Origin: Dethiobacter sp.
GTDB lineage: Bacteria > Bacillota > Dethiobacteria > Dethiobacterales > Dethiobacteraceae
Assembly (NCBI GenBank): GCA_018335875.1
Contig: JAGXRN010000054.1
Span: forward strand, 1-64,000
Length of the DNA: 64,000 nt
Direction of reading: 5' to 3'
Shown: positions 1 through 17,441 of the stretch, one piece after another
How the letters are laid out: every line of letters begins with the position of its first letter
Position numbering within the stretch: the stretch's first letter is position 1
Notes under the pieces: model-generated
Told to the model about the DNA's origin: nothing
The model's database searches: none
What the model saw: only the letters and a program-made list of their open reading frames with translations
Made by a program: the position numbers and the translations under genes

Positions 1-263
1 GCCATTTAAAAACTCCTCCCTGAAATATTGGCTCAAACAATTGAAAAAATGTGGATTTTGTGGTATCCTTGCCTTGCATATTTTGACTCCTTTATATTGG
101 AGATTTGGGCAAGGACTACCCCATATCTCTATTATAAAGGATTTTTTCTATATATGCAAGGGTTTTATGCCTATTTTGCTTGATATTCTCCTGATTACAC
201 CTATTATCTCAAATTATCTTCCTATTTCCATGCTTGACAAATTAAAATTCAATTTATGCAACT
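1..263. other. AT-rich left edge without a supported gene
   Basis: This stretch is AT-rich. A 77-codon forward reading frame runs through it, but it has no convincing ribosome binding site and its hydrophobic composition is what AT-rich noncoding DNA gives. I see no RNA gene. It lies just past the 3' end of the exonuclease gene and presumably continues the accessory element to the left. Confidence 0.4.
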
Positions 264-1064
264 CTAGTGCCTAGATATATTAATAAGACTTTCTTTATTT
301 TTTGATGTTATAGTCTTATTCGAGATTATACTTTTTATCAGAGGGTTAATTATATTGTATGGTTCTGTCTCTGAAAATTTATCATATTCACATATCCATT
401 TCTCTAATAATCTGAATTTACTGTCATTTATATCACTAGTTATACCCGTGATTATTCCATGTAATGAACTTAGTGACTTAATCAAAATTTGTTTTTCTGC
501 TTTTTTAATATAATTATCTTTCAATTGGAATATCGATGTATTTCGTGTCATAGCTGGATATTTGTTATTTATATAACTAAAAACTTTCTGACAGGCAATT
601 GCATCACTAAGTGCATTGTGATGATTTACTAATTCTATATCTAAATGATTGCAGATATTTTTAAGATTATAACCTTCAATATTAAGAGTACATCTAGCAA
701 GTTCTAAAGTACAAATATAGTAAACTTTAGGTAGTTGTAGCATATAGTTTTTAAGAGTTTTTCCAATAACATTCAAATCAAATGCTGCATTATGTGCTAC
801 AACTACTCCGCTTGAAAAATAGTTACTTATTTTTTCCCAAACTTCAGGAAAAATTGGTTTATCTATAACCATTGATTTTGATATTTTATTAATTTCCATA
901 TTTATTCTGTCAAATTTGCATTCAGGATTTATTAAATAATAATCTTTTGAAACAACCATATTATTCCTAACATGAACAATTCCAATTGAACAAATAGAGT
1001 CATTTATGGAGCTTGGTGTCTCTACATCAATAACTGTGTAAGTGGTTATTCTTTCATTTTTCAT
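264..1064 (-). CDS. DEDDh 3'-5' exonuclease (DnaQ/Pol III epsilon type)
   Basis: Predicted 3'-5' exonuclease of the RNase T/DnaQ superfamily, 266 aa. The DEDDh residues are readable: the D-x-E pair at residues 13-15 (VIDVET), the Asp in AHNAAFD near residue 97, and the H-x5-D arrangement in NHHNALSDA near residues 150-157. The C-terminal third (about 180-266) matches nothing I know and may bind a partner. A strong GGAGG lies eight bases before the ATG. Stand-alone exonucleases of this kind are common on phages and integrative elements, which fits this accessory block. It could act in DNA repair, replication proofreading or nucleic-acid turnover. The fold is well supported; the specific role is not. 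Confidence 0.8.
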   Translation of the reverse strand: MKNERITTYTVIDVETPSSINDSICSIGIVHVRNNMVVSKDYYLINPECKFDRINMEINKISKSMVIDKPIFPEVWEKISNYFSSGVVVAHNAAFDLNVIGKTLKNYMLQLPKVYYICTLELARCTLNIEGYNLKNICNHLDIELVNHHNALSDAIACQKVFSYINNKYPAMTRNTSIFQLKDNYIKKAEKQILIKSLSSLHGIITGITSDINDSKFRLLEKWICEYDKFSETEPYNIINPLIKSIISNKTITSKNKESLINISRH

Positions 1065-1128
1065 TTAGTAGACCTCCATCCCATATTTTAAGTAAGGATG
1101 AGTTTCACCTACTCAATAATAGCCTTAT

Positions 1129-1602
1129 TCAAAGAAAAATATTCCAATCTATTAATCTATGATTGCCAAATTCTTTTTTTATATAATTTTTTATTGCTGT
1201 TATGTTAGAAAAATCTTCGGAAATATTTTCAGTAAAGAAATTCAAATCGTGACTAAAAATATTTTTTCTTATTCTAAAGGTTAGGCTTTTCTTTTCTAGT
1301 TTTCCTTCTTTATTTTCTTTTTTATAATCAATTACTGCTTTAAATATTGTTATAAATCTAAACCTTGCTGTTTCTACTCCATTATCTTGAACTACAATTA
1401 ATTTTCCATCCTCTATTTTATTAAATTCCAATATCTCGTCTGAATTGAATAAACCCATACCTTGTCTACAGTTAAGCCCCGATAAAAACTTTTCATACAT
1501 CGGTTCGCTATAAAAATAATCCACTTCTATCAAATTATTATTAGTATAATTAAGCACAATACAGCCAAACTCTTCCAGCATTTCTTGAAGCCTTGTACTC
1601 AA
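1129..1602 (-). CDS. hypothetical protein (157 aa)
   Basis: I do not recognise this protein. It has 157 residues and is mixed acidic/basic, with no signal peptide or membrane segment. The start is TTG, preceded by a strong GGGGGAG. A basic middle (about residues 90-115, rich in Lys and Arg) is followed by an alternating beta/alpha pattern. It lies between the exonuclease and another unknown gene on the same strand, with loose spacing, so an operon is possible but not obvious. Base composition is AT-rich like the rest of the element. It is probably a real gene because the frame is open over its whole length with a good ribosome binding site. Confidence 0.55.
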   Translation of the reverse strand: MSTRLQEMLEEFGCIVLNYTNNNLIEVDYFYSEPMYEKFLSGLNCRQGMGLFNSDEILEFNKIEDGKLIVVQDNGVETARFRFITIFKAVIDYKKENKEGKLEKKSLTFRIRKNIFSHDLNFFTENISEDFSNITAIKNYIKKEFGNHRLIDWNIFL

Positions 1603-1723
1603 TGTTACTCCCCCTCTCTACTAATTCTTTTTTGGGACACAAATTTAGACACAATAAAAACAGAGACCATAGGCAAACTTTTTTCCCTCTGTCAAATTGG
1701 CAAAGAACTTACTTATTCCATTT

Positions 1724-2233
1724 TTAAATATTTGAGTTTTTCCTGCGTTTTAGATTAGCTTCCTTTACCATATTTATTAGCTTTGAATGTGCATTTATAT
1801 TAAATTCTATAGCCTTTTCAACAGCCAGGGGACTATTCTCCCATAGAGCAGGGTATTTACTTCTAATAAAATTAATTAAAGCAATTTTTTCTTTTGCAGT
1901 AGGAATATCAGGAGCTTTAGGAATTGGCAAAGGCTCATCCCCTTTACTTAATTCCTCTACAGTCATAAATCCAAACATATTAAAATTGTAAAATTTATCG
2001 TGTCTTTCCTGTGTAGTCAATACATATTGACCGTGCTCTTCTAATTGAATTCTGTCAAACCCGACACGGATTAGCCGCCAAGGTTTTCTGTTTTTTGTCT
2101 CGTAATAAAGGTTAACCATAAGGACTGAGGAATTCCCCAACTCTGGAATCGCCTTATATGTTGAATCGTTTGGAGTTGGAATTGTATAGACCTTACCTTC
2201 ACTTGTTATATAAAGAAACTTTATTCCAGGCAT
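1724..2233 (-). CDS. hypothetical protein (169 aa)
   Basis: An uncharacterised soluble protein of 169 residues. The N-terminal half is beta-rich (short strands with many aromatic residues, about 1-90), which suggests a small barrel or SH3-like fold. The C-terminal part (about 105-165) looks helical and ends in a basic tail rich in Lys and Arg. There is no Cys motif, signal peptide or transmembrane segment. A GGAG sequence lies about eight bases before the ATG. Neighbours are other unknown genes on the same strand. I cannot assign a function. Confidence 0.55.
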   Translation of the reverse strand: MPGIKFLYITSEGKVYTIPTPNDSTYKAIPELGNSSVLMVNLYYETKNRKPWRLIRVGFDRIQLEEHGQYVLTTQERHDKFYNFNMFGFMTVEELSKGDEPLPIPKAPDIPTAKEKIALINFIRSKYPALWENSPLAVEKAIEFNINAHSKLINMVKEANLKRRKNSNI

Positions 2234-2333
2234 ACGTTTTCTTTTCTCCTTAACCCAAAGATTAATCTTTTTGAAGAAATAATGTATTATTTACTTTTTA
2301 AAACTTTGGTTCGCCAGTAATATTAAAAAAGTC

Positions 2334-3071
2334 TTATTTCCTGTCACTCAACTTCTTAGCTTTTTCAAGTCTTTCAAATAATTTTGGAGGCATAGCTCCT
2401 GGGGCATGCTTCTGCTTCGCAAATCTCTCTAATATTTCTACCTCTTTATCATAGTCCTTTTGTTTGCGGTACATTTTGGCTAAATTTTCATATGGGGCTG
2501 GAGCAACTCCCCAGTCATTCTTTTTGGCTTCTCGTTCAGTCTTTTTAACATCTTTCAGATATTTGGCTTCAAGCTCCTCTGGAGTATATTCTACCTCTGT
2601 TCCCCATATGTCTAATCGAATACCAGGGTGTTTTCCATCTCTAGCTCTAAACATAACCTTTATAGTAGCATATAAAGGGGTGTTGGATTGAGTTTTCTCA
2701 AATACTTCCTCAGCAAAAAAACCCTCAACTATGCCTAGTTGCCCTTGTTGCATATTATTCTTGTCATCAAGCCAAGAGCCATTTACTAGTAAGACTTTTT
2801 TACCCTTGGGTTGCCTCTCAACTGATACTTTTCTATAAGTTCCGTCAATAAAGGAATTAACCGTGCCTTCATTTCTACTGATACCTGACACAAATGCATC
2901 ATATACAACTCTCTTAACATTAGCTGCAGGTTGCTTTTGGTTTATTCTAACAAAGTGGCTTTCATCACCTGGGTTCCTATAATCAATGTTATAACCTGCT
3001 TCACCGTTGATAATAGGAGCCTCTTTAGCACCTTTGGACAACTTATCCTTTACTCCTTTTAAGAGTCCCAT
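2334..3071 (-). CDS. hypothetical protein with C-terminal TPR-like helices
   Basis: About 245 aa, cytoplasmic. The first 25 residues form a basic amphipathic segment. Residues about 30-160 are beta-rich and resemble no domain I can name. Residues about 190-225 have the spacing of a single tetratricopeptide-like helix pair (an A-x-x-Y pattern followed by EVEILERFAK). I place the start at the ATG at 3071 because AGGGGG lies just before it; a TTG two codons upstream is in frame. The gene sits 15 bases after the YaaC-like gene stop on the same strand, so the two are probably co-transcribed. The function is unknown; a role in binding a partner protein is a guess from the TPR-like tail. Confidence 0.6.
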   Translation of the reverse strand: MGLLKGVKDKLSKGAKEAPIINGEAGYNIDYRNPGDESHFVRINQKQPAANVKRVVYDAFVSGISRNEGTVNSFIDGTYRKVSVERQPKGKKVLLVNGSWLDDKNNMQQGQLGIVEGFFAEEVFEKTQSNTPLYATIKVMFRARDGKHPGIRLDIWGTEVEYTPEELEAKYLKDVKKTEREAKKNDWGVAPAPYENLAKMYRKQKDYDKEVEILERFAKQKHAPGAMPPKLFERLEKAKKLSDRK

Positions 3072-3086
3072 ATTCAACCCCCTTAC

Positions 3087-4181
3087 TTAACACCTAAGAC
3101 GTTCTCTCCTACGTTCGTCAGTAATTCTTTCATAAATCTCTGGAAACAATTCATCTGCAATTTCCCTGTTGCTTTTTTGTATGTTAAACGAATTATGAAA
3201 AATGTAATCTTCTCGGAATAAAGCATTTACTACAATATGTAAATACCGTTGTTTACACACATCAATTGATTTGCTAATGATTTCTGATTCAAGTGATATA
3301 TTTGGGTCAACATAAGCACCCCATCGTTCAGGCTGGTATCTGGACATCATTCCGAAAGCGTAGATAATTAAATAGGCAATTGATATTTCATTTAACTTAA
3401 AAATATTTTCTTCTTTTTTGGAGGGGATTCTTAGATACTCTTCACCAGCGATTGATTTAAATAATAAACCTAACTCAGACAAACTTTTTTTGGCATATGT
3501 ATATTTCTCAATAATAAAAGTATCTTCTTTGACTTCTAAGCTATATTCATTTTCTTGCAACAAACTTTTAATTGAGTGTAATTGCTCCTTTAGTTCGCTA
3601 AAATGAATACTATCTATATTGATGATAAATTTTGATTGTCTTTCGCTGTAAAACGGCACAACTCTTGGATGCTTGTTATAAACATGCAAATATAGCTGAT
3701 ATAAATCTGGAAGTTGACTTATTAATTCCTGTAAGTTAGTACTTATATTTAGGAAACTGCCTAAATCATAGATTTTTAATAAATCAGAAAAAGTTCCATA
3801 CTGTCCAATTTTAACTGTTTCATTTGATAGTGACAAAACTCCTTCACCATCTGGTTTATTAGCTCCATGCTTCCTAAACATATTAGTAAAATTTATACCT
3901 GCAGAACTTTTTATCATAACTAATGCCTTTGCTAAATTTAACATTCCATAACTTAGCAATAAGGGTCGTGTCAGTAGAGACACTTGACTTGAAGCTGTAA
4001 AAAACTCTCTTGCCTGTCGGGTACAATAGACTACACTTTTTGTACGCAATTCAACTTCACTGTCAGTTATTTCAGTATGAACTGCGGAAAGATGTCTACC
4101 TACGTATTCTGTGCTTTCAAATAAGCCTAACAGTGACCATAACTCTCTTTGAGCGTCTGTTGTGTATATGATTTTAGGCAT
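3087..4181 (-). CDS. YaaC-like protein
   Basis: A roughly 364-aa helical protein that I match to the YaaC family (named after a Bacillus subtilis gene of unknown function). The resemblance is strongest around residues 75-105, where a LLSYGMLNLAKALVMIKSS segment matches the family signature, and in overall length and helical content. The start is taken as the ATG at 4181, in front of which lies GGGGATG; a frame open further upstream has no ribosome binding site. It probably shares a transcript with the 2334-3071 gene. YaaC proteins are found both in core genomes and in defence or mobile islands, and no biochemical role is established. Confidence 0.6.
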   Translation of the reverse strand: MPKIIYTTDAQRELWSLLGLFESTEYVGRHLSAVHTEITDSEVELRTKSVVYCTRQAREFFTASSQVSLLTRPLLLSYGMLNLAKALVMIKSSAGINFTNMFRKHGANKPDGEGVLSLSNETVKIGQYGTFSDLLKIYDLGSFLNISTNLQELISQLPDLYQLYLHVYNKHPRVVPFYSERQSKFIINIDSIHFSELKEQLHSIKSLLQENEYSLEVKEDTFIIEKYTYAKKSLSELGLLFKSIAGEEYLRIPSKKEENIFKLNEISIAYLIIYAFGMMSRYQPERWGAYVDPNISLESEIISKSIDVCKQRYLHIVVNALFREDYIFHNSFNIQKSNREIADELFPEIYERITDERRRERLRC

Positions 4182-4305
4182 TAAATCACATCCCCTGTAA
4201 ATTATCTTCGATAGTGTCATCTCATAAACAGATATGTTCACCATTCTCCATAAGTTTCCATATTCCTCTATATTAACTTATACGCAATATAGTTGATTCC
4301 CATAA

Positions 4306-4515
4306 CTATTCATCAGGAACATACTCAAACAAATCTCCAGGCTGGCAGTCCAAAGTCTTACATAACTTATCCAAATGGTCAATTTCCAGCCTCTTAACTG
4401 TTCCATGCCATAACTTTGACGCAGTACCAGGCCTTATGCCAGTTTCCTCAGATAACCTCTTCTGTGTCATTCTGTGCCTTCCCATTAATTCAGCTACTTT
4501 TATGTGAATAGTCAT
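4306..4515 (-). CDS. XRE/Cro-type HTH repressor (YozG-like)
   Basis: A 69-aa single-domain DNA-binding protein of the Cro/C1 family. The helix-turn-helix is in the first 45 residues (MTQKRLSEETGIRPGTASKL) and the rest matches short YozG-like regulators (DHLDKLCKTLDCQPGDLFEY). An ATG four codons upstream has GGAGG directly against it, too close to function, so I use the second ATG. It is divergent from an excisionase-like gene, with a roughly 135-bp shared control region that carries an inverted repeat. That arrangement is the usual repressor/early-gene switch of prophages and integrative elements, so it may control lysogeny or excision. Confidence 0.8.
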   Translation of the reverse strand: MTIHIKVAELMGRHRMTQKRLSEETGIRPGTASKLWHGTVKRLEIDHLDKLCKTLDCQPGDLFEYVPDE

Positions 4516-4541
4516 ATATTTATTCATACCTCCTTCTACTA

Positions 4542-4554
4542 TAGTGCACCACTA
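4542..4554. promoter_or_regulatory. inverted repeat between divergent HTH genes, candidate operator
   Basis: TAGTG-CAC-CACTA is a five-base-arm inverted repeat in the gap between the XRE repressor and the excisionase-like gene. A partial second copy (CTAGTG) lies about 45 bases further on. Paired half-sites between divergently transcribed genes are where Cro/C1-type repressors normally bind. The assignment to this repressor is inference. Confidence 0.4.
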
Positions 4555-4650
4555 AATGAAATAATAACCATTAGAAATACTACCGCTAGTGTATTATAAT
4601 TATTATTAGCAGTAGTTTTATTGTCAAAACGGGGATGGAGGTGTAACAAG

Positions 4651-4941
4651 ATGGGAAAAAATAATAAAACAGCACATGCTACAGCAGAGGAAATAGCAAA
4701 AATCATGGAAAAGCCATACTGGACAAGGGAAGAAGCGGCCAAGGTTATCGGTGTGGGGATTAACCAGATGTCGGAATTAATAAATAATGCAGAAGTACCA
4801 GTTTTCCGGTATGGCGGCATCAGGAGAATTCCGCGTGATGAGTTTGTGCAATGGATTTCTGACAAAAGCTTTGATGCAATACAGATTAGGATGGCGGCGC
4901 GCGGAAAAAAGCTCACAGATTTCAGACAAAAAAAAGAATAA
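4651..4941 (+). CDS. excisionase-like HTH (MerR/Xis-type) protein
   Basis: A 96-aa DNA-binding protein. Residues about 30-80 match the helix-turn-helix 'excisionase family' domain: YWTREEAAKVIGV, then a recognition helix, then the wing GGIRRIPRDEFVQWI. The ATG at 4651 has GGAGGTG nine bases ahead; the longer frame from a TTG includes that site and is rejected. Proteins of this type act as recombination directionality factors or as small regulators. It is divergent from the XRE repressor. A second excisionase-like gene (15929-16126) lies near the integrase, so this one is not necessarily the Xis of that integrase. Confidence 0.75.
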   Translation: MGKNNKTAHATAEEIAKIMEKPYWTREEAAKVIGVGINQMSELINNAEVPVFRYGGIRRIPRDEFVQWISDKSFDAIQIRMAARGKKLTDFRQKKE

Positions 4942-4985
4942 CTAAGCCTGCCCTAAAACTGACAAGTGACAGGAAGTGAAACATT

Positions 4986-5378
4986 ATGATTAATTTTAAA
5001 TACATGATTAAAGGCACTCCCATTAACTGGTTTTCCACAACCTTATCAAAAGAACAATTAATTGAACAATATAAACAAGAAGCATCTGAAGCAAGCAGTT
5101 ATGAAGTAAGCCAATATGAAAATATCGTAAATATCAAACATGTCTTTATCGAAAAAGCAGTTAAGTGGATTACTGGAAAAATGCCTCATACAATTAAATA
5201 TTTTTCTATTCCTGATTATGCCGCTCGCGACATGGAGATATGTGCCTTAGCAAAAATGTCAGGCAATGTGACAACTTATATGTTTACAAATAATAAAGAA
5301 TTTGCTGATTTTGTAAGTAAGCAAAGTGGTTTTGATATTTTTGAGGTTGCCATTGCCATAAAAAATCCCCAAGGCTGA
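4986..5378 (+). CDS. hypothetical protein (130 aa)
   Basis: An unrecognised 130-residue soluble protein, probably alpha/beta. There is no Cys-rich motif, signal peptide or membrane helix. AGGAAGTG precedes the ATG at a workable distance. It follows the excisionase-like gene by 44 bases on the same strand and may be expressed with it. Its codon use and AT content match the surrounding element. I cannot assign a function. Confidence 0.55.
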   Translation: MINFKYMIKGTPINWFSTTLSKEQLIEQYKQEASEASSYEVSQYENIVNIKHVFIEKAVKWITGKMPHTIKYFSIPDYAARDMEICALAKMSGNVTTYMFTNNKEFADFVSKQSGFDIFEVAIAIKNPQG

Positions 5379-5674
5379 GGGGGTAAAATTTGACCTTATT
5401 AAAGGGCTGCTATCCGGCAGTTCTTTTTTATTGAAAGGTGAAGCCTTAAAAAATAAAATGGGCAACTAGCTTCCTCATTGTGAGATATTGCTTTATTTCC
5501 ATATATTTTGCATTGCCTTAACTGTTTGGAACAGCTAATATGGTATAGCAGTTTTTATACGAAGATTTATTATAGTTATATATATACTTATTTATTTATT
5601 ATTTTTGCAGGAAATTCTGCGGTTTTCTTTAATTTAATTAGAATTAAAAGGTAAAAAAGGGAGCTTTTGCTGAA

Positions 5675-6526
5675 ATGAAATTAGCAACTACCGTCTTGTC
5701 AAACCAAAAAAAATTATATTACATTTATGAACTTATTATGGCTTTCCTTGCCCTTGCTGTTCTGGCAGTGTTAATTATTGAATTTACCCGTCCCTTAAAT
5801 GAGGCACAACAACTCCTTCTCGCTAAAATTGACTTTTCTATTTTGGCAGTCTTTGCAGTAGACTACTTTTACCGGCTGGCCCGTACTAAAGAAAAATGGA
5901 AGTTCTTTAAAAGTAACATTTTTGACTTAATTGCAATTATGCCTTTTGACAAGGCCTTTCGGTTAGCACGTCTGGCCCGACTAACCAGGCTAACAAGGCT
6001 ATCTCGTACTACACGCCTTTCCAGGGCTACTAGGATTACCAGAGTAGGACGTATTATTGTCATCGGACGTAAGTTTGTTTATAACCTTAAAGGCATTTTA
6101 ACAACCAATGGGCTTCATTATATGCTTTTATTTACAGCTTGCCTGATTATTACTGGAGCTATCAGTATCAAAGCTTTTGAACCAAACATGGACACTTTTG
6201 GGGATGCCCTTTGGTGGGCTCTTGTTACGGCTACAACAGTCGGCTATGGGGATATTTCACCAGAATCTGCAGGCGGTAGAATTGTTGCGGCTATCCTTAT
6301 GCTGGGGGGCATTGGCTTTCTTGGTATGGTCACAGGTAGCATAGCCACATACTTTGTTGATAAATTATCTCACGGCGAACAGAAAAAATCTGTAGCCAGT
6401 GAACAGATAGAATATGTAAAAAACAAACTAAACGAACTGGAAAAATTGGAGAAGGAAGATTTGCAACACATTACACGCATTATTACCAGTGTCTGGGAAG
6501 AAACCAAAATAAACAACGCTAAATGA
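5675..6526 (+). CDS. voltage-gated-type potassium channel
   Basis: A 283-aa integral membrane protein with the six-helix voltage-gated cation channel plan. S1-S3 lie in about residues 15-92, a strongly basic S4 at 96-132, and S5, pore and S6 between about 150 and 240. The selectivity filter TVGYGD is intact, which makes it K+-selective. The C-terminus (about 245-283) is a charged coiled-coil that could tetramerise the channel. S4 is unusual: Arg occurs at every third residue from 96 to 126, eleven in a row. Kv-type S4 helices typically have four to seven. The gene stands alone between an unknown gene and the MBL-fold gene. The family call is firm; gating behaviour is not known. Confidence 0.9.
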   Translation: MKLATTVLSNQKKLYYIYELIMAFLALAVLAVLIIEFTRPLNEAQQLLLAKIDFSILAVFAVDYFYRLARTKEKWKFFKSNIFDLIAIMPFDKAFRLARLARLTRLTRLSRTTRLSRATRITRVGRIIVIGRKFVYNLKGILTTNGLHYMLLFTACLIITGAISIKAFEPNMDTFGDALWWALVTATTVGYGDISPESAGGRIVAAILMLGGIGFLGMVTGSIATYFVDKLSHGEQKKSVASEQIEYVKNKLNELEKLEKEDLQHITRIITSVWEETKINNAK

Positions 6527-6565
6527 TAAAGATTTAATACAAAAAATCATCGGAGGTAAATAAAA

Positions 6566-8053
6566 ATGGGTGACTTTTTGGCATTTATTGGATTATTGGG
6601 CTTTTTCGCAGGCCTAGTAATGCTAATCTACAACTTTATTAAAAAGAAAGTTAAAAAAACTGCAGTTATCATAACAGTAGTATCATTTTTCTTATTTATT
6701 ACAGGTGCAGCTATTTCCGGCCCGTCAGAAAAAGCATCCCCACCAAGCGAACCGCCAGTAACGGCAGTGGGACAACAAGAATCAGAGCAAATAGAATCAG
6801 ATGAAAAAGAAATAGCTGAGGATCAGAGCAGCGAAAAAACTGAAGGAGCGAGCCAGGGTTTGTCTGAAAAAGATAAACCTGTTGCAACTACCCCAGGCGC
6901 AACAGCTCCAGCATCCACCACAACTGTCACCGGACAGATGAAGGTGCATTTTATAGACGTAGGCCAGGGTGATGCAATACTCGTTCAAACACCTACACAA
7001 AATATCCTTATTGATGGCGGTGACCGTGGCAATACTGTCGTCAATTACCTGCGTAATTTAGGCGTAAATAGCCTGGATGTTGTTATCGGTACTCATCCTC
7101 ACGCCGACCATATTGGTGGCCTTATTAACGTCATGCAGAGTATCCCTGTAAAAGAGGTTATTGACCCAGGCGTTGTCCATACAACCAAGACTTTTGAAGA
7201 TTACCTTACTCTCATTGATGAGAAGAACATTATCTTTACTGAAGGCCGTGCCGGTATGTCCCGTGATTTGGGTGGCGGTGCTAAAATGGAAATACTGCAT
7301 CCTGTTTCCCCTTCAAGCCGCCATCTAAACGATGCATCCATAGTAGTCAAAATAACATTTGGTGAAGTCAGCTTCATGCTGACTGGCGATGCCGAGCAAG
7401 CGGCAGAAAATCAGATAAGAAGCCGAGGCTATGACCTTAACAGCACAGTGTTAAAAGTAGGCCATCACGGGAGCCGAACCAGTACAATAACCGCATTTCT
7501 TAATGCAGTTAAGCCGGAAGTAGCCGTTATAATGAGTGGAAAAAATAACACTTACGGCCATCCACATCAGGAAACACTTGCTAAACTTACTGAAGCTGGC
7601 GTAAAAACTTATCGGACTGATTTACATGGGACAATTGTTATTACCACTGACGGACAAACTTATGATATTAACCAGAAACAACCTTATCAGTACACCCCAC
7701 CTAAAGTACCTGAGCCTGCTACTTCCTCCCCCACGCCTACGCCTACTACTCCAACCACTACACCTACGCCTGCTCCCGAAAATAAGCTTTCTGTTATCAG
7801 CTATACAGAAACAGTACCCCAAGGGGGAACAGCTAGCATAACAGTCCAGGGAAAGCCAAACACACAGTACTCAATTACAGTCACTTATAAGTCAGGGCCT
7901 AGCAAAGCTTCTGGTCTGGAAACAAAAACATCAGGCTCTGATGGAAAGGTTAGCTGGACATGGAAAGTCGGCGCAAACACAACTCCTGGCTCTTGGCCAA
8001 TTGACATTAATGGTGGCGGAGAAAGCGTCAGGGTTAATTTTACAGTTCAATAA
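6566..8053 (+). CDS. ComEC/Rec2-like MBL-fold hydrolase, membrane-anchored, with C-terminal Ig-like domain
   Basis: A 495-aa protein with four parts. Residues 1-55 carry two membrane helices. Residues about 60-120 are a low-complexity Glu/Pro/Thr linker. Residues about 125-375 are a metallo-beta-lactamase-fold domain of the ComEC C-terminal type, with HFIDVGQGDA, the metal ligands HPHADHIGG, the TGDAE Asp and GHHGS. A Pro-Thr linker then leads to a beta-sandwich domain (about 405-495). The domain is predicted to sit outside the membrane. It is followed 22 bases later by a DUF3006 gene, a common pairing. Extracellular hydrolases of this type are suspected nucleases or phosphodiesterases; the substrate is unknown. 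GGAGG precedes the ATG. Confidence 0.85.
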   Translation: MGDFLAFIGLLGFFAGLVMLIYNFIKKKVKKTAVIITVVSFFLFITGAAISGPSEKASPPSEPPVTAVGQQESEQIESDEKEIAEDQSSEKTEGASQGLSEKDKPVATTPGATAPASTTTVTGQMKVHFIDVGQGDAILVQTPTQNILIDGGDRGNTVVNYLRNLGVNSLDVVIGTHPHADHIGGLINVMQSIPVKEVIDPGVVHTTKTFEDYLTLIDEKNIIFTEGRAGMSRDLGGGAKMEILHPVSPSSRHLNDASIVVKITFGEVSFMLTGDAEQAAENQIRSRGYDLNSTVLKVGHHGSRTSTITAFLNAVKPEVAVIMSGKNNTYGHPHQETLAKLTEAGVKTYRTDLHGTIVITTDGQTYDINQKQPYQYTPPKVPEPATSSPTPTPTTPTTTPTPAPENKLSVISYTETVPQGGTASITVQGKPNTQYSITVTYKSGPSKASGLETKTSGSDGKVSWTWKVGANTTPGSWPIDINGGGESVRVNFTVQ

Positions 8054-8075
8054 AGCTTTAAATTAGGAGGCCAAT

Positions 8076-8294
8076 ATGAAAGCTATTATTGACCGTTTTG
8101 AAGGTGACTACGCTGTTGTATTATTTGGGGATGAAGAGATAAAAGCGGATATACCAAAAAAACTTCTCCCCAAAGGTGTTCGGGAAGGAAGCTGGTTGAA
8201 AGTGTCTTTTGAACTTGATGCTGAAGGCACAAAGAAGCAGGAGGAGAAAATAAAAAATCTGCTGGACAAATTGAAGAACAAACAAAAAAGTTAA
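8076..8294 (+). CDS. DUF3006 domain protein
   Basis: A 72-aa protein matching DUF3006, a small beta-rich domain starting M-K-A-I-I-D-R-F-E-G-D-Y-A-V-V, with a basic helical tail rich in Lys and Glu. AGGAGG lies ahead of the ATG. DUF3006 genes are repeatedly found next to ComEC-like MBL-fold genes, as here (22-base gap, same strand), so the two are probably translated from one mRNA. The domain resembles small OB- or SH3-like modules, which is only a suggestion that it helps bind nucleic acid. Biochemical function is not known. Confidence 0.8.
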   Translation: MKAIIDRFEGDYAVVLFGDEEIKADIPKKLLPKGVREGSWLKVSFELDAEGTKKQEEKIKNLLDKLKNKQKS

Positions 8295-8322
8295 CGTGGT
8301 ATATTTGGGCCTACACAGATTT

Positions 8323-8391
8323 AAAACGGACAAGCTAATACCAAACCTCATACAAGCTCCTTTTGCCACGTTACAGAGGCAACTGGAGCTT
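8323..8391. repeat. direct repeat copy A containing a hairpin
   Basis: About 70 bases that recur at 9063-9132. The shared core is a hairpin with AGCTCC and TTGCC on the left arm and GGCAA and GGAGCT on the right. The similarity also covers the unpaired 30 bases to the left (GACAAGCTAATACC versus GACAGGCTAATACT). It follows the DUF3006 gene and could act as its terminator, although no T-run follows in this copy. Confidence 0.6.
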
Positions 8392-8463
8392 CTCCTTAAC
8401 AAAATCAATTTTGGCAAGGATGTTTTAAAGTAACCTACAACCCCCTGTCAATAATTACATATA

Positions 8464-8676
8464 CTAAGGATAATCAATACAACTACTGTAATTATCTGCC
8501 CTACACCTGAATAAACGATTAACGCTCTTTTTTAAACCTTTAACAACTCCATACTTTTTAATAGCTATAATTGCGTATTCTGAACAAGTTGGATAAAACC
8601 TACAATTACCAGTCAATTTAGAAAGGCGTTTTTGGTAAAACCTTATTAAAGTGATTATCATTCTAGTCAACGTCAT
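8464..8676 (-). CDS. yidD: YidD membrane protein insertion efficiency factor
   Basis: A 70-aa YidD family protein. The signature is complete: FYQKRLSKLTG, then CRFYPTCSEYA, then the helix containing KKYGVVKG and the RLFRC tail. YidD is a small membrane-associated protein that helps YidC-dependent insertion of membrane proteins. In most Firmicutes it sits in the rpmH-rnpA-yidC cluster near the origin. Here it is alone in an accessory element beside a zinc-ribbon gene, with which it overlaps by 14 bases, and both are flanked by the two direct repeats. It is therefore likely a second, mobile copy. The family call is firm. Confidence 0.9.
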   Translation of the reverse strand: MTLTRMIITLIRFYQKRLSKLTGNCRFYPTCSEYAIIAIKKYGVVKGLKKSVNRLFRCRADNYSSCIDYP

Positions 8677-8911
8677 GCTCCACTACTTCTTTTTTTACGG
8701 CTGTAGAATTACATTTTGGACACTTTGAGAAATCAGTTGTTTTTTTAGTCGGTATCAGTAGTGCAGGAACACAGCCAGTACAACACATCATACTTTTACC
8801 TGCATTGGATAGTGCATCTCCTGTATTCTTTAGCGCATCCTGTTTTCCTACAAACCATTCATTACCACAGGCTTTACAAGTAAATTTTGTTTCTTTTATC
8901 TTCTTGCCCAA
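8663..8911 (-). CDS. small double zinc-ribbon protein
   Basis: An 82-aa protein with one Cys pair near the N-terminus (CKACG, residues about 13-16), a CCTGC cluster in the middle and a second pair near the C-terminus (CPKCN). This is a zinc-ribbon layout split by an insert of about 50 residues. The insert is Ala/Gly-rich and may be weakly membrane-seeking. It overlaps yidD by 14 bases, suggesting coupled translation. I do not know a function; zinc ribbons of this size usually bind nucleic acids or partner proteins. Confidence 0.65.
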   Translation of the reverse strand: MGKKIKETKFTCKACGNEWFVGKQDALKNTGDALSNAGKSMMCCTGCVPALLIPTKKTTDFSKCPKCNSTAVKKEVVEHDVD

Positions 8912-9269
8912 AGTTAATTCCCATCCTTATTTTAAGTATGTTCCCTAGTATCCACACTGGAAAATTATACCCATATATTAGTATTTTATCCAGACTAGGC
9001 TGTAAATAATTAACACAAATACTGAACTGAAGAAAGCCGCACACATTTGCTTTATATCGTGCTTAACAGACAGGCTAATACTTAAACCACCAAGAAGCTC
9101 CTTTTGCCTCGCTTCAGAGGCAACTGGAGCTTTTTACTTGTAATCATCAATGTTGCAGTAAGAGCCATTAAAATAGTAAATATCATAACGGTTGAAAGTA
9201 TAAACAGGCATGTAAAAACAAATGCTACTATGTAAAGAATTATTTCCCGTTTAAGGCAATGGTGAATCA
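8912..9269. other. divergent intergenic region with repeat copy B
   Basis: About 358 bases between the zinc-ribbon gene (minus) and the cytochrome gene (plus). The only structure I can support is the second copy of the direct repeat at 9063-9132. A 62-codon reverse frame at 9082-9270 is read through that repeat and lacks a ribosome binding site, so I do not call it. Confidence 0.5.
9063..9132. repeat. direct repeat copy B containing a hairpin
   Basis: Second copy of the 8323-8391 repeat, in the same orientation. Here the hairpin (AAGCTCC at 9095-9101 paired with GGAGCTT at 9126-9132) is followed by a T-run, so it has the form of a rho-independent terminator on the plus strand. No gene ends just upstream of it, so it is more likely an inserted or duplicated block. 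Confidence 0.6.
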
Positions 9270-9755
9270 ATGAAAATGTATTATAAAATCATTATAATAA
9301 GCCTTGCATCTCTAGCTGCCCTGTACACAGCTTTTACGGGTTTATACTACATTACTTATTCGCCTCAATCATACTGTGCTTCCTGCCATTTTATAGAGCC
9401 GTATGTTCAGTCCTGGGATGAGTCACCCCACCAGTCAGTAAACTGTGTGCACTGTCATGAATTCAGGGGCTTCCTGGGTAAAATTGATTCAAAGGCCAGA
9501 GGAATAAACCATGTTTATCAGACAGTAACAAACCAATATACAGTACCTGGGGGAGCAAGAGTGTTTGAGCAAAATTGTATCGGGTGTCACCTTGGCGATT
9601 ACAGGCAGTTTCCGGATGCAACAAGACTAAGTAATGAAGCAGCTAATCACTATGCTTTGATAAAGGAAGGCCGGTCTTGTTTGGAGTGCCATATGGAAGT
9701 AGGACACACAACCAACATTCTGCTAACGCCTGAATTTGAGAAGAAATGGGAATAA
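9270..9755 (+). CDS. NapC/NirT-like membrane-anchored tetrahaem cytochrome c
   Basis: A 161-aa c-type cytochrome. An N-terminal membrane anchor (about residues 6-30) precedes four CXXCH haem sites: CASCH at 36-40, CVHCH at 59-63, CIGCH at 103-107 and CLECH at 137-141. The first two haems are preceded by SPQSY and by DESPHQSVN, as in the NapC/NrfH family. These proteins take electrons from the quinol pool to a periplasmic (here extracytoplasmic) reductase. No reductase is encoded next to it; the following gene is an unknown membrane protein. An orphan quinol dehydrogenase in an accessory element is unusual. Family call strong, partner unknown. Confidence 0.88.
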   Translation: MKMYYKIIIISLASLAALYTAFTGLYYITYSPQSYCASCHFIEPYVQSWDESPHQSVNCVHCHEFRGFLGKIDSKARGINHVYQTVTNQYTVPGGARVFEQNCIGCHLGDYRQFPDATRLSNEAANHYALIKEGRSCLECHMEVGHTTNILLTPEFEKKWE

Positions 9756-9811
9756 CAATAGCCTGATGCTTTCAAACAAGCATACCTAAAGAGGAAGGTA
9801 AAACTCATAAA

Positions 9812-10267
9812 ATGGATATGAAAGATAGAATCACAAGAGGGTTTATTGCAGGTATTATTAGCGGAATAGTACCATTTGCCCTTAACTTCGGAAGCTATTA
9901 CATAAATTTTACAACTGCGCGCTGGTCAGAATTTATGGGAGTTCTTCTGTTTGGCAGCCCACCTGCCACAATTGGGAAAGTAATATTTGCTGTAATTGCA
10001 GTATTTATATTCCTGGGATTTTTAGGGACTATTTTTGCGCTTACAGTTCCCTTAGTATCAAGCAGGAGTTATTTGTTAAAGGGCTTTATGTATGGAACGG
10101 CTATATGGTTCATATCTTTTTCGGCCACAACTTTTTTTCAAATAGCTGAACTTCAAGCTCCTCCGTTAAAAACGGCTGTAACCAACTTTATTAGTGCTTC
10201 ACTTTGGGGAATAATGTTAGGCTTAACCCTAAACTGGGTTGACGATAGATTAAAGCAGGAAGTATAA
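9812..10267 (+). CDS. hypothetical four-helix membrane protein
   Basis: A 151-aa integral membrane protein with four predicted helices: about residues 12-30, 50-80, 88-110 and 120-140. Small polar residues (Gly, Ser) line the helices and there is no recognisable metal or haem motif. A GAGGAAGG lies somewhat far ahead of the ATG. It follows the tetrahaem cytochrome by 56 bases on the same strand, so a joint role is possible. I do not recognise the family with confidence; it recalls the YqhR-type membrane proteins of Bacilli but the match is loose. Confidence 0.55.
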   Translation: MDMKDRITRGFIAGIISGIVPFALNFGSYYINFTTARWSEFMGVLLFGSPPATIGKVIFAVIAVFIFLGFLGTIFALTVPLVSSRSYLLKGFMYGTAIWFISFSATTFFQIAELQAPPLKTAVTNFISASLWGIMLGLTLNWVDDRLKQEV

Positions 10268-10359
10268 AAGCTATAACTACCATGTTTCTGTTCTTGAATA
10301 TTAATAGCACTTTTAAAGTACAATATTAAAAAATCCGGTTTCAATTAAAGGAGCAAATA

Positions 10360-11340
10360 ATGACACCAACTTCAATTTTCAAAAGGGCCAGAGGTGGAAG
10401 AGAACAAATTGATATCCAGGAAGCATACAATATTTGGAACCTTTTAAAAGCCAGATATCTTAGTGCCCAAACGGTTCAGCTTTTTAGTAACTTTGTCCAC
10501 GACAGGGATTTATCGATTGTACTTAACACACTGTTAACTCATTTCAAGCAACAAATAGATATATTGGAAAAAGAGGGTAGAAAGTTTAAAATTACCCTGC
10601 CGACCAGGCCTCCACTAGATATAAAGTTCTCGACCAGTATTAATGATATTACAGATGAGTATATTTATCATAAGATTATTGCTGATATGATGGCTCAGCT
10701 TTTCTCTCTCACCCATGCATTACGCTCTACAACTACAAATGACACCTTAAGGGTGCATGTTATTAACGATTTAACAGGTCATATAAAAGACTTTGAAATG
10801 TTATACAAGTACGGGAAGATGAAAGGCTGGGAAGAGCCTCCACCTGCTTATAAAACTGCCACACCGGTTATGCGTGAACAGCTTTCGACAGCCGAGGCCT
10901 TTCATATTTGGGACCATATTGCCCAAAGATATGACCAACTGGAACTAACCGCTTTTTTCCATGGCTTTGCACATGACCTCGATTTTAGGGCAATATTACT
11001 GGCTGGACAAACTATCCTTAATAAACAAGTTAGTATGCTCGAACAGTATGCACTTAACTTTGAGGTAACACTTCCCAAAAGACCTGCGGCATCGGTAAAA
11101 TCTCCCATCGACCCAGAAACAATGACTGATAAAATGATGTTTAGCTATATTTTTAATGGTATTATCGGTTCGGTAGATTTACATATAAAAGCAATTATAG
11201 AGACTATTAAAAATGACGCTCTGCGGCAGATATGGTTAAACCTGTTTAAAGAGGAATTACAGATGTATGATAAATATGTCAAGTATGGAAAAATGAAAGG
11301 ATGGACAAAAGTAGTGCCAATTTACGGAGAACCGGTTTAA
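10360..11340 (+). CDS. DUF3231-like two-repeat helical (ferritin-like) protein, copy 1
   Basis: A 326-aa soluble helical protein built from two related halves (about residues 15-165 and 175-325). Each half begins with an EA(Y/F)xIW segment, contains an (F/L)xHDxDF stretch and an LPxRPP turn, and ends with a Y-K-Y-G-K-M-K-G-W signature. This matches my memory of the DUF3231/coat-F-type ferritin-like proteins of spore formers, which also come as tandem domains. AAAGGAG precedes the ATG. The next gene is a full-length paralogue with the same two-half plan. A sporulation-related role is suggested by the family, not shown. Confidence 0.7.
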   Translation: MTPTSIFKRARGGREQIDIQEAYNIWNLLKARYLSAQTVQLFSNFVHDRDLSIVLNTLLTHFKQQIDILEKEGRKFKITLPTRPPLDIKFSTSINDITDEYIYHKIIADMMAQLFSLTHALRSTTTNDTLRVHVINDLTGHIKDFEMLYKYGKMKGWEEPPPAYKTATPVMREQLSTAEAFHIWDHIAQRYDQLELTAFFHGFAHDLDFRAILLAGQTILNKQVSMLEQYALNFEVTLPKRPAASVKSPIDPETMTDKMMFSYIFNGIIGSVDLHIKAIIETIKNDALRQIWLNLFKEELQMYDKYVKYGKMKGWTKVVPIYGEPV

Positions 11341-11402
11341 TAATTATCTAACTGGATGACTCCTATTCCCATCAATGTTAAAAAGAAAAGCAGGTGAACA
11401 GC

Positions 11403-12380
11403 TTGGGCATTTCCATTTTTAAACAATCAAGAGGACTAAAACAGGAGATAGACATCAAGGAAGCCTTTAATCTCTGGAACATGTTGAGAGCCAGGTATCA
11501 CAGCACGGATACCATTCGGTTATTAAAAGACATGACCCATGACCGTGACTTTACTATGCTTTTGACAAATCTCGTGAATGAGTGGGACAAGCATATACAG
11601 CAATATGAAGATGCGGCAAAAGCTTTACAGCTTAAAGTCCCGAAAAGACCCCCCTATGACTATAGAACCAGTGCTAAAATAAATCAGGTTACAGACGACT
11701 TTATCTTTAAGAGAATTTATAACGATATAGTGGCACAAATGTACCCCCTCATTACAGCATATCGGACGTCTACAACTAATGATATGCTCAGGAAAATCAT
11801 CCGCAACGATTTGGAGAAACACCTTGAGAATTTTGAAATGGTTTATAAATATGGAAAGCTTAAAGGGTGGATGGATGAACCTCCCGCCTACAAGACTTCT
11901 AAATCTAAGTTAACTGAAGCATTGACGACAGGTGAGGCATTTCATATTCTCGACCATATTGCCCAGAGATACCATCAACTTCAGCTTACACAGTTTTTCC
12001 TCAGCTTTGCTCATGATAAAGAATTTCGGCTTATCTTGAGTCAGGGAATTAAAAGGCTTGAAACTGAGGCAAAAACGCTGCAGGAGTTATGCCTTAAATA
12101 TGAAATACTGTTGCCCAGTCGCCCTCCTGTTTCAACTCCTGTTACCATCGAGCCTGAGTCGGCAGAAGACAGCTTCATGTATGAAGTTATTTTGAGTGGC
12201 ATGCAAAGTGCCATTGATTTGCATGTCCGTGCTGTGATTGAGTGTATAAGAAATGATGGTCTCCGTAGTGTGTTTTATGACCTTTTTGCCACCGAGCTAA
12301 AGATGCATGAAAGCACTTTAAAATATGGTAAAGCTAAGGGATGGATAATAACAATTCCCATCTATTCAGAGCCGGTATAA
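11403..12380 (+). CDS. DUF3231-like two-repeat helical (ferritin-like) protein, copy 2
   Basis: A roughly 325-aa paralogue of the preceding gene with the same two-half structure and the same repeated Y-K-Y-G-K-x-K-G-W ending in each half. I place the start at a TTG at 11403 because AGGTG lies six bases before it and because this gives the same short N-terminus as copy 1. A GTG three codons upstream overlaps that ribosome binding site. The two paralogues are 60 bases apart and probably form one transcript ending at the hairpin at 12427-12456. Between them they hold four copies of one domain. Confidence 0.7.
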   Translation: MGISIFKQSRGLKQEIDIKEAFNLWNMLRARYHSTDTIRLLKDMTHDRDFTMLLTNLVNEWDKHIQQYEDAAKALQLKVPKRPPYDYRTSAKINQVTDDFIFKRIYNDIVAQMYPLITAYRTSTTNDMLRKIIRNDLEKHLENFEMVYKYGKLKGWMDEPPAYKTSKSKLTEALTTGEAFHILDHIAQRYHQLQLTQFFLSFAHDKEFRLILSQGIKRLETEAKTLQELCLKYEILLPSRPPVSTPVTIEPESAEDSFMYEVILSGMQSAIDLHVRAVIECIRNDGLRSVFYDLFATELKMHESTLKYGKAKGWIITIPIYSEPV

Positions 12381-12426
12381 ACCCAAAACGAGGGAAAAGC
12401 TTCATTTTACGTGGAAGCCAAAATAA

Positions 12427-12456
12427 TAATGGACTGCTGGTAGCAGCAGTCCATTA
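12427..12456. terminator. perfect 13-bp hairpin after the DUF3231-like pair
   Basis: TAATGGACTGCTG (12427-12439), a four-base loop GTAG, and the exact complement (12444-12456). It lies 46 bases after the second DUF3231-like stop codon. No clean T-run follows on the plus strand, so it may terminate convergent transcripts or protect an mRNA end. Confidence 0.55.
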
Positions 12457-12475
12457 GATATGTTAATGCTTACAA

Positions 12476-12709
12476 TCAAACTAACTGTTCATCTTTTTCA
12501 ATTTTTTCTATTGTTGCACCCTGTTTTTGTATTTTTTCAACCTCTGCTTTCATTTCTAGTTCCGTCATTTTTCCAAAACTCCCCATCCGCGAACCTCTTG
12601 GCATAACATAAAAAATCCGGTAATTGTACCTTTCCACTTTTTACCGTCCACCCTTCCGGTAAAATAATCTGCTCATAGTAATAGTGAGGTACAATATGTT
12701 GTTAGACAT
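12476..12709 (-). pseudogene. frameshifted remnant of a small hypothetical gene
   Basis: Read on the minus strand, three consecutive frames each continue one another. An ATG at 12709 with AGAAGGA upstream opens MSNNI. A second frame then reads VPHYYYEQIILPEGW and continues to FADGEFWK. A third frame continues MTELEMKAEVEKIQKQGAT and ends EKDEQLV at 12476. The middle frame has no start of its own and the last frame has no ribosome binding site. This is what a gene of about 75 codons with two indels looks like. The protein is not one I recognise. A 42-codon frame at 12476-12604 could still be translated. Confidence 0.45.
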
Positions 12710-13051
12710 TATTTTGAATTTTCCTTCTATAAGTAATAACTTTTTCTGGGTTTTTTTCGCTTACCAACCTAAAATAGCCCCCAGTACCAGATAAAATGAG
12801 AACCACCTAAAAGACAGAGCGTTCTTCTGCCTGCGACACTTAAGCCAATGCAGCCGCTTTCTCTGCCTACTCAATAGGTTTTTTTTGTATTATTGCCTAC
12901 TTATCCTATCTGAATACCGGTATTGTTCGGAGGATGTGCGGAGAAAATGCGGAGCATGTTGTCAGGCTTGCCAAACGGGGAAGTTGATGATGAATTTAAA
13001 AGCTTAATTTCAAGCTCCGATATTTTACCCATGTTTTTTAACCTCTTGTTT
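12710..13051. other. gene-poor stretch in the element
   Basis: About 340 bases between the decayed gene and the ArpU/RinA-like gene. A 63-codon forward frame at 12923-13114 overlaps the end of the real minus-strand gene and has no good start. I see no RNA gene or strong hairpin here. Confidence 0.4.
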
Positions 13052-13396
13052 TTAAATTCCCAACCGGTGAGCAAAAACCATCAAAATCTCTTTTTCCAAC
13101 CGGTAAAGTGTTGACTGGCTCATACTAAGCTGGTTCTCTATCTCAAACTGGGAGTTTCCTTTAAAGTATTTAAGTTCCACAAGCCGCCGCCGCTCTGTCT
13201 GTAGGACGGCCAGCACGTCCTCCACTGCCTGCACGTAAAAGTTAACCTTTGCCCATTGTTCCTGTAGCCTTATCAGCCGGAAGGCGGCTTTTGCTGTCGG
13301 GTCAGTTAATGCTGTTTGACTGGACACGCGATTTTCCCAAGTTGCGGCAGGGAAGGACTGTGCCAACTCTTGCCGCTGAACTTCAAGCTGTGCCAA
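13052..13396 (-). CDS. ArpU/RinA-like phage transcriptional regulator (sigma region 4-like HTH)
   Basis: A protein of at least 114 aa. The C-terminal half (about residues 55-110) has ERRRLVELKYFKGNSQFEIE followed by a recognition helix, the sigma-70 region-4-like HTH seen in the ArpU and RinA families that control late genes of Gram-positive phages. The start is uncertain. TTG at 13396 has little upstream, while the frame stays open to an ATT at 13481-13483 that sits six bases after a strong GAGGGGGTG. That extension would give about 143 aa, closer to the family's size. It lies downstream of the dnaB-type helicase on the same strand. Confidence 0.65.
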   Translation of the reverse strand: MAQLEVQRQELAQSFPAATWENRVSSQTALTDPTAKAAFRLIRLQEQWAKVNFYVQAVEDVLAVLQTERRRLVELKYFKGNSQFEIENQLSMSQSTLYRLEKEILMVFAHRLGI

Positions 13397-13511
13397 CTCT
13401 TTTTTAAATAAGGGATATCGCCGCAGTACAGCCTGAATAAAACGCTTTTCGTGGAGTGTAAGGTCAGTGCCACCTACGCAAATAGGCTCACCCCCTCAAA
13501 AGTTTTTAAGG

Positions 13512-14807
13512 CTATTGGTATTTGAATTTACTCATATTTTTGAATTTTGGCTCACTACTTGAAAATGTTAATACGCATCTCCCAGGGGAACCGTCACGGT
13601 TTTTTTCTATGATGACATCCGCTTCACCAGGACGTTTTGACGTGTAATATTCATCCCGATAGATGAACATAATTACATCGGCATCTTGTTCAATGTTACC
13701 ACTCCCACGCAAATCAGCCATTAAAGGCATAGGAGGCTTTCGATATTCTACCTGTCTGTTTAGCTGGCATAAAAGCACTACAGGCACGTTCAACTCCTTC
13801 CCCATTACCTGAAGTGAGTTTACAATACTCCCCAGGTGTTCATCCCCTGTCATGCCTTTCTGCCGCTTATCAGCTATCTTGCCAAGGTAATCAATGATGA
13901 CAAGGCCAAGGCCATTATCATACTTTTCGCGGTAACACCGGCTTCTGATGTCCTTTGTTGTCACACTTTTGTCAACCACCCTTATCCTCCGCTTAGTAAG
14001 TTCACCAATTCCGGAGATAGCTTTAATTTGTTCTTCTTCCGTTAATGTCCGTGCCTTGTAATGATTGCCGTTTATTTCTGATATGGAGCATATCAGCCTG
14101 TCCGTAATCCGCTCCTTAGTCATCTCCATCGTGAAGTATAGGGTATTTACGTCTTTACTTACATTCAGCGCAATATCACAGGCTAACTGAGTTTTTCCCA
14201 TTCCAGGCCGTCCAGCGATTATAATTAACTGTCCGTCAGCCATGAAATTAATAATTTTGTCAATGTCAATAAAGCCGGTTTTTATGCCATTTGTTTTTTT
14301 ATTTTCGTAATAGTCGTTATACCGTTGTTTTGCAAGGTTGCTTATTTCATGAACTTCCACATGTGGTAATACATTGGCCGCTTCTTTTAATTTTTTATCA
14401 ATTTCTAAAAAAGCTTCAGCAACGGAATACTCACTTTCATTAAGTGCAATTTGCGCTCCCTCAAAACAAGCCTTGTATTGCCTGCGTCTCGCCGACTTAC
14501 TTTTTACTATTTTCGCGTAGTTATCCACAAGTGATGGAGTTGCCAATTCAGCAAGTTTTGTAATTTCTGCTATACCAGCGAATCCAGGCTGTTTTTCCAG
14601 CATATAGGAATTCAAGGCTACTATATCCGCGGGGCTTCCTGCTTCATAAAATTCCAGAATTCCTTGAAATAAAAGCCGGTTTTGGCTAACATAAAAGTCA
14701 GATGGCGCTATTTCTGATAAAACCAATGGAATGTTTTGGTTGTCCAAAATTAACGACCCTAATAACGCCCGTTCAGATTCAATATCGTGCGGCAACTTAT
14801 GCATCAT
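13512..14807 (-). CDS. dnaB: replicative DNA helicase, DnaB type
   Basis: A 431-aa DnaB-family hexameric helicase. The N-terminal DnaB domain (residues 1-110, beginning LPHDIESERALLGSLI) is followed by the RecA-like ATPase domain: Walker A GRPGMGKTQ near residue 200, Walker B LVIIDYLG, the sensor LCQLNRQVE and an arginine-finger region. It is somewhat shorter than chromosomal DnaB proteins of about 440-470 aa. GGAGGAG precedes the ATG, and the gene overlaps the upstream replication protein by 11 bases. Together with that initiator-like gene it forms a phage/ICE replication module, so it is probably the element's own helicase and not the host copy. Confidence 0.9.
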   Translation of the reverse strand: MMHKLPHDIESERALLGSLILDNQNIPLVLSEIAPSDFYVSQNRLLFQGILEFYEAGSPADIVALNSYMLEKQPGFAGIAEITKLAELATPSLVDNYAKIVKSKSARRRQYKACFEGAQIALNESEYSVAEAFLEIDKKLKEAANVLPHVEVHEISNLAKQRYNDYYENKKTNGIKTGFIDIDKIINFMADGQLIIIAGRPGMGKTQLACDIALNVSKDVNTLYFTMEMTKERITDRLICSISEINGNHYKARTLTEEEQIKAISGIGELTKRRIRVVDKSVTTKDIRSRCYREKYDNGLGLVIIDYLGKIADKRQKGMTGDEHLGSIVNSLQVMGKELNVPVVLLCQLNRQVEYRKPPMPLMADLRGSGNIEQDADVIMFIYRDEYYTSKRPGEADVIIEKNRDGSPGRCVLTFSSSEPKFKNMSKFKYQ

Positions 14808-15555
14808 ATTGCTCCTCCATCAATGCGCGCACATTGGGAGACATATTAACGCTTTCCCAGCCAGAGATTATTGGCTTCTCTTTTTCATCCTTGGAAGGCT
14901 TTTTATCTGTATAATTTTCATCTAAGTAATCAACATAACCAGAATTAAGAAAGGTGCTACCATGTTGGATAAACTGTTCTTCCTTGCCGGTAGTTTCTTT
15001 TTTGTATCTCTCTATACAAGCTTCAATTTTTTGTACACCAATTTTATGTAGCTTCTTTTTTTGTGCTTCGGAAATTTTACCCTTACCTTTTTTCTTTGGG
15101 TACAAAGACCATAGATACTCAAACGTGACCATATGAGGGTTAAGGGAATCAGTATGAGGGTTAAGGGAATCAGACGGGCAGCTTCCATGCTCGTCCTGTT
15201 TTTGCACCGTGTTAATACAGTGCATATCTGGTGCTGGTATGATACTAGCCTGTTCTTTTATGTGAGGGTGCTGGTGCCGTAGAAAATTTTTAATTTGTAT
15301 ATACCGTTCGCCATTAACCTCATAACGGATAATAAACTGCTCCTGATTATTAGCAAGGCTGTTAAGAAGGGTGTCAATGTCGCAGTTATCATAAGGCAAA
15401 ACATCCGCTTTAATGCGTTTTGGACGGTCTTCAAGCCTCCCCTCCCTATCCGCCAATGTCCATAAACCAGCAAACAATATTCTGGCTAACGGGTCTAATT
15501 CGGCAAGGTGTTCATTTTTGAAGAACCCTGGTTTTATGTTGCGTGACCGAGCCAC
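14797..15555 (-). CDS. phage replication initiator-like protein (replisome organiser type)
   Basis: About 252 aa. The N-terminus ARSRNIKPGFFKNE followed by LAELDPLARILFAGLW and EDRPKRIKADVLPYDN is the signature of a widespread phage replication protein with a winged-helix N-terminal domain. The middle (about residues 125-145) is a linker with two copies of SLNPH. The C-terminal helical part (about 150-225) probably contacts the helicase. The GTG at 15555 has GAGGTG six bases before it; the frame is open upstream, but that part belongs to the overlapping zinc-finger gene. It is translated just before DnaB, which overlaps its last codons. Confidence 0.75.
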   Translation of the reverse strand: MARSRNIKPGFFKNEHLAELDPLARILFAGLWTLADREGRLEDRPKRIKADVLPYDNCDIDTLLNSLANNQEQFIIRYEVNGERYIQIKNFLRHQHPHIKEQASIIPAPDMHCINTVQKQDEHGSCPSDSLNPHTDSLNPHMVTFEYLWSLYPKKKGKGKISEAQKKKLHKIGVQKIEACIERYKKETTGKEEQFIQHGSTFLNSGYVDYLDENYTDKKPSKDEKEKPIISGWESVNMSPNVRALMEEQYDA

Positions 15556-17423: not shown

Positions 17424-17441
17424 GAAAGGAGGGTAAAATTA

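Follow-up and report, generated by a model that had tools for sequence, protein, structure and literature searches.

Does the unbroken row of arginines in the putative voltage-sensing helix of a bacterial channel constitute a genuine sensor, and, if so, by what steps could it have grown and what could it do? The question is raised by a gene at positions 5675–6526 of the window, which is the 64,000-nucleotide stretch of Dethiobacter sp. DNA analyzed in the present study (features lie on the forward strand unless stated otherwise). Its product, a protein of 283 residues, is matched by the Pfam models Ion_trans (3.7e-22, 79.1 bits against a cut-off of 25) and Ion_trans_2 (1.5e-17, 63.7 bits against a cut-off of 22.5) and, over residues 9–257, by the profile of phrog_7872 (5.7e-71); it is the sole Ion_trans_2 match in its own genome. 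A CNBD was sought by Pfam in the channel, and Ion_trans and Ion_trans_2 were the only domains found, leaving the earlier suggestion of nucleotide binding without support; the lipid binding suggested alongside it is possible. Residues 188–193 (6236–6253) read TVGYGD, the K+ selectivity filter, in keeping with the Ion_trans_2 match; NaChBac-type channels have a Na+-type filter, and the window protein is therefore not one of them. In an alignment of 19 sequences (A2), F60 of S2 (5852–5854) is invariant, and both D63 of S2 (5861–5863) and D84 of S3 (5924–5926) are D or E in every row. We take F60, as the equivalent of F233 of Kv1.2, to be the plug of the charge transfer center, of which D63 and D84 are presumably the acidic partners. 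Judged by its sequence, the protein is a K+-selective, six-helix channel of the Kv type and a member of the KvLm-like family represented by phrog_7872.

The ladder, described in the sequence-only reading as eleven arginines followed by Arg132, is real. Arginine occupies residues 96, 99, 102 and so on to 126 in a strict i+3 register, the codons running from that of R96, which starts at 5960, to that of R126, which ends at 6052; V129, R132 and K133 follow (6068–6073 for the last two), and the residues separating the rungs are hydrophobic or small. That the sensor is exceptional was also borne out, as only 3 of 52 non-redundant relatives, all of the window channel's own clade, reach a run of 11 or 12. 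A match at 1e-10 was obtained in 10 of the 97 genomes of the class, and five of these ten, including that of the window, have a long ladder. The four nearest homologues found, which belong to the same class, possess unbroken R/K ladders of 11–12 rungs: L039 (62% identity to the window channel, 11 rungs), L040 (55% identity, 12 rungs, with one extra rung in the best alignment), and the fragments L041 and L002 (11 rungs each), where rung numbers come from alignment and run counts and a count begun from another start gives 12–13. A long ladder common among homologues, which had been named as grounds for discarding the claim, is thus found locally, in 5 of the 97 class genomes, but not elsewhere, the ladders of the family at large being shorter. 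Two of the five copies in the clade are incomplete, which tells against the functional reading preferred below: L002 is divided between two frames, L041 has an early stop, and in each case the contig ends within or soon after S4. When the window channel was compared with L039, L041 and L002, all 33 rung comparisons had R or K on both sides, against 25 identical residues out of 60 between the rungs, which suggests that the ladder predates these lineages and has been kept by selection; the rung codons were identical in just 8 of the 33.

The notion that the coding DNA is a run of similar 9-base units is true only trivially, as a consequence of the three-residue period of the protein, because base identity at lag 9 (0.451) is no higher than that of a synonymous-codon null (0.458 ± 0.035). 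Five members tested in a similar way, four of them homologues of the window channel, had no significant lag-9 excess over the null, and Tandem Repeats Finder reported just 2.3 copies with a score of 35, at 5981–6001. Recent growth by tandem repetition of DNA is therefore not supported, and we reject tandem expansion as the direct origin of the ladder.

Growth of another kind emerged from the family as a whole. A scan of viral contigs with alignment A1 yielded 45 related loci, and others came from plasmid and phage records and from additional genomes. The first sample comprised 60 unique family ORFs scoring at least 150 bits, of which 38 were kept at less than 80% identity; the second comprised 82 new ORFs, of which 32 were not identical to earlier ones and 14 were kept. 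The fragments L002 and L041 were left out of the resulting 52. The segment measured was that between the anchors F95 and N145, which contains S4 and the S4–S5 segment and, at 51 residues in the window channel (5957–6109), is itself a multiple of three. In the first sample, 35 of the 38 lengths were 27, 30, 33, 36, 39, 42, 45, 48, 51 or 54, and the other three, each of 38 residues, formed one clade; the second sample, used as a test, gave 13 multiples of three out of 14. Pooled, the rule holds in 48 of 52 non-redundant members, with L135, L138, L141 and L197 as the exceptions, and with the more conservative anchor P90 in place of F95, 46 of 52 fall in one residue class. Length changes were also inferred by parsimony, on a tree for which IQ-TREE was given the alignment with the S4 columns removed: in F95–N145, 21 of 22 changes were multiples of three (P = 1.4e-9 against a chance of one in three), as were 20 of 23 in P90–N145 (P = 1.6e-7), compared with 2 of 9 in the S1–S2 loop, from which two of the 52 members were omitted as too short, and 1 of 7 in the turret. 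An earlier FastTree tree of the 38 members gave 17 of 18, with 1 of 8 and 2 of 7 for the two control segments. The controls are loops rather than helices because no other helix of the family varies in length. This rule of whole rungs is what the present study chiefly adds, and the ladder of the window, real and conserved, marks the extreme of a series in which sensors are graded by length. The proposal that the ladder has grown, which failed at the level of DNA repeats, thus stands on the evolutionary scale, where nearly all length changes are whole three-residue rungs.

Quantized lengths could also come from a mutational bias toward 9-base indels, and this counts against the reading that we prefer, in which the rungs are functional units. 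According to that alternative, slippage in the Arg-x-x repeat would have set the lengths under little selection on rung number, and slippage in a ladder with 9-base periodicity would be expected to favor 9-base steps. We nevertheless think it unlikely, since the five members tested have no DNA repeat signal beyond that of the protein itself, the rungs stay R/K throughout although their codons are so seldom identical, and the rule is kept even where the ladder is poor, as in L145 and L130. Poor ladders, with segments of 36 residues, are likewise found in L013, where two channel genes of the family adjoin each other.

The longest R/K run in i+3 register grows with the length of the F95–N145 segment, and subtracting three times the run from the span leaves 18 residues in 27 of 52 members and 21 in 15 of 52; commonly, then, each rung accounts for three residues of the segment, and the remainder is a tail of fixed length. 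The viral member L047 has a run of ten, and runs of nine occur in L026 and L030, more distant channels outside the family. Since the turn from P90 to F95, which is six residues long in 37 of 38 members, ties the outer end of S4 to S3, added rungs should extend its inner end. Modeled as an α-helix, the eleven rungs wind evenly around the axis (resultant 0.09) and would make a cationic rod of about 45 Å, and they would face one side only if the helix were 3-10; the core of a membrane measures about 30 Å. A review describes S4 as crossing the constriction as a 3-10 helix and relaxing to an α-helix away from it (PMC13095418). The AlphaFold2 model of the window channel has pLDDT values of about 47–56 at residues 91–120 and a pTM of 0.42, which fix neither a long helix nor a break, and the model of the shorter L045 is also weak at S4. 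The models join the inner part of S4 and S5 as one helix, a feature that bears on the non-domain-swapped arrangement of the KvAP and Kv10–12 type, in which the S4–S5 linker does not form an interfacial helix, with S4 itself at low confidence. The best Foldseek hits were Kv4.2 and Kv2.1, with TM-scores by query of 0.29–0.37 among the 50 best matches listed; models and hits alike are compatible with a Kv fold and do not fix the S4 geometry.

The same even spiral and the excess of the rod over the membrane core can be turned into a different explanation, namely that the inner rungs serve mainly as an anchor for lipid or nucleic acid, an Arg-rich interfacial helix that binds phosphates rather than carrying gating charge. 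This appears improbable to us, because neither a strict i+3 phase nor length changes by whole rungs would be necessary for mere binding, and because of the hydrophobic or small character of the residues between the rungs.

We instead propose a Kv-type channel with an S4 that gained its length by whole rungs and works as a screw through the charge transfer center, a reading that we hold to be about evenly poised between right and wrong. S4 would pass the single charge transfer center rung by rung, with some four to six rungs in the membrane field at once, and the remaining rungs would make up an inner, polybasic stretch of helix that lies either in the cytosol or against anionic head groups. 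The lengths would be quantized because an insertion other than of whole rungs would put the ladder out of register with one end or the other. Opening would most likely occur on depolarization and let K+ flow outward, by analogy with KvLm and KvAP, and extra rungs would set the range of S4 travel and the stability of the down state. Why many charges should be needed is not obvious, given that KvLm is reported to gate strongly with only two S4 charges (PMC2853561).

The long S4 might also recall HCN and KAT1, in which it is described as a common feature (PMC11189445); by analogy with HCN, a long S4 is compatible with opening on hyperpolarization, again a point against our reading. In an inward rectifier of that kind, S4 would reach into the cytosol and shut the gate when up, and the best NCBIfam match of the window channel, far under its cut-off, is indeed the model of a hyperpolarization-activated archaeal channel (5.6e-19). 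We regard such polarity as doubtful, because the window channel has no CNBD by Pfam, because its nearest characterized relatives, KvLm and KvAP, are reported to be depolarization-activated (PMC2853561), and because KvAP has a long S4 too (PMC7403406).

The channel gene lies in a low-GC stretch that takes up the initial 18.7 kb of the window. GC content there is about 0.28–0.45, before it settles at about 0.5 after a step from 0.43 to 0.52 at a tRNA-Pro gene (18,714–18,790, reverse strand), which bounds the stretch on the right and is the likely integration site. This stretch (1–18,790) contains phage-type replication genes (DnaB and a replication initiator) and, at 17,442–18,596, a tyrosine integrase (phrog_1, 3.6e-72) of the element that apparently carries the channel; its low GC, replication genes, integrase and tRNA-Pro end suggest that an integrated phage-like element probably carries the channel. 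No attachment-site repeat of at least 13 bases was found between 18,601–18,800 and 1–18,590, and the left end may precede the contig start. That the gene is merely decayed cargo of the element, with a ladder devoid of any present role, seems very improbable despite the low-GC stretch, the integrase at tRNA-Pro and the broken appearance of L002 and L041, because the frame, filter and sensor of the window copy are intact and the conservation of the rungs indicates selection.

Downstream of the channel lies a gene for a ComEC-like protein of the metallo-β-lactamase fold with an N-terminal hydrophobic stretch (6566–8053). A ComEC-like gene adjoins the channel in L039 (2–849) as well, there in the opposite order, upstream, and a small protein of 90 residues, which we assume to be DUF3006-like, is encoded between the two. 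Farther along the window, two adjoining, clearly similar genes (10,360–11,340 and 11,394–12,380; 326 and 328 residues) look by eye like a tandem duplication.

The phrog_7872 family is common in temperate phages. The channel homologue lies beside repressor genes in phages JNU_P5 and PLE2, in the latter near an integrase, and an integrase follows it in the viral contigs L048 and L054. In Gram-positive bacteria, complete Kv-type channels were observed both in temperate phages and in viral contigs (L138, L139, L048, L054 and L047), by repressor genes and often with an integrase. Two viral homologues, L088 (2974–3756) and L085 (2980–3741), have the degenerate filter GYEG instead of GYGD with the sensor otherwise intact, L088 being on the same contig as the intact, ten-rung L047. 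In L146 (4353–6060), which holds the L040 homologue, twelve rungs are combined with the filter GYYD, and the genes beside it are, we presume from their appearance, Ku and LigD. A channel neighbor is annotated as a DUF1887 CARF protein in L134 (2808–3965), and another matches the abortive-infection family phrog_2158 in L083 (4339–5373); a link to phage defense is possible. A wider and more tentative idea, which we judge possible but less probable than the screw itself, is that S4 evolves modularly in single rungs, from about 3 to 12, each adding one more register at the charge transfer center, with rung number setting S4 travel and voltage range and with temperate phages and plasmids spreading the graded series.

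The reach of the searches should be kept in mind. Scans of the viral contigs with single proteins as queries, the window channel and L135, found nothing, and order-wide searches covered 3, 5 and 1 genomes. A DNA pattern for Arg ladders matched 128 of 398 genomes, swamped by low-complexity sequence, and its reversed control also matched freely, so that it gives no rate for long ladders. Title searches, mainly of open-access literature, found no report on whole-rung growth of S4 and none on phage Kv channels. To our knowledge, most work on the number of S4 charges in gating and on the relation of S4 length to polarity and voltage range has relied on mutants of individual channels. The family offers a natural series of homologous channels whose sensors differ by whole rungs, from about 3 to 12, while the pore, the S3–S4 turn and the segment after the ladder stay nearly constant, and the effect of sensor length is therefore directly testable. 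PHROGs assigns no known function to phrog_7872. Those of its members that were read in this analysis are channels of the Kv type, and this identity suggests a function for the phage family.

The nearest solved sequences by profile are 6uwm (2.1e-37, the best full-length match), which we take to be KvAP, and the pore of Lmo2059/KvLm, 4h33 (2.3e-37). KvLm (Lmo2059 of Listeria monocytogenes) shares with the window channel the profile family, the S3–S4 anchor and the SN/TN anchor. L232, a channel from Listeria, matches the Lmo2059 crystal sequence in how its pore reads and has, by hand count, an S4–S5 segment of 33 residues with a degenerate ladder; read from it, KvLm obeys the multiple of three, as does the window channel with 51, and stands at the short end of the family. 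KvLm is described as strongly voltage-dependent with a short S4, its two charges contrasting with the eleven in a row of the window (PMC2853561). KvAP of Aeropyrum pernix resembles the window channel in its long S4, reported to be 13 residues longer than that of Kv1.2 and to break on polarization in simulations (PMC7403406), but the six S4 charges listed for it, R117, R120, R123, R126, R133 and K136 (PMC6882556), are half of the twelve arginines of the window. HCN and KAT1 are similar in that their S4 is likewise of unusual length and charged at every third residue (PMC11189445), and they differ in carrying a CNBD. The S4 of HCN is described as having seven R/K with Ser/Thr midway, in contrast to eleven rungs in a row, and the same source mentions up to eight S4 R/K in named protist channels (PMC7576140). 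The sperm exchanger SLC9C1 also has a long S4, of some 60 Å (PMC10620092), but, being an exchanger, it has neither a channel pore nor an S4–S5 linker.
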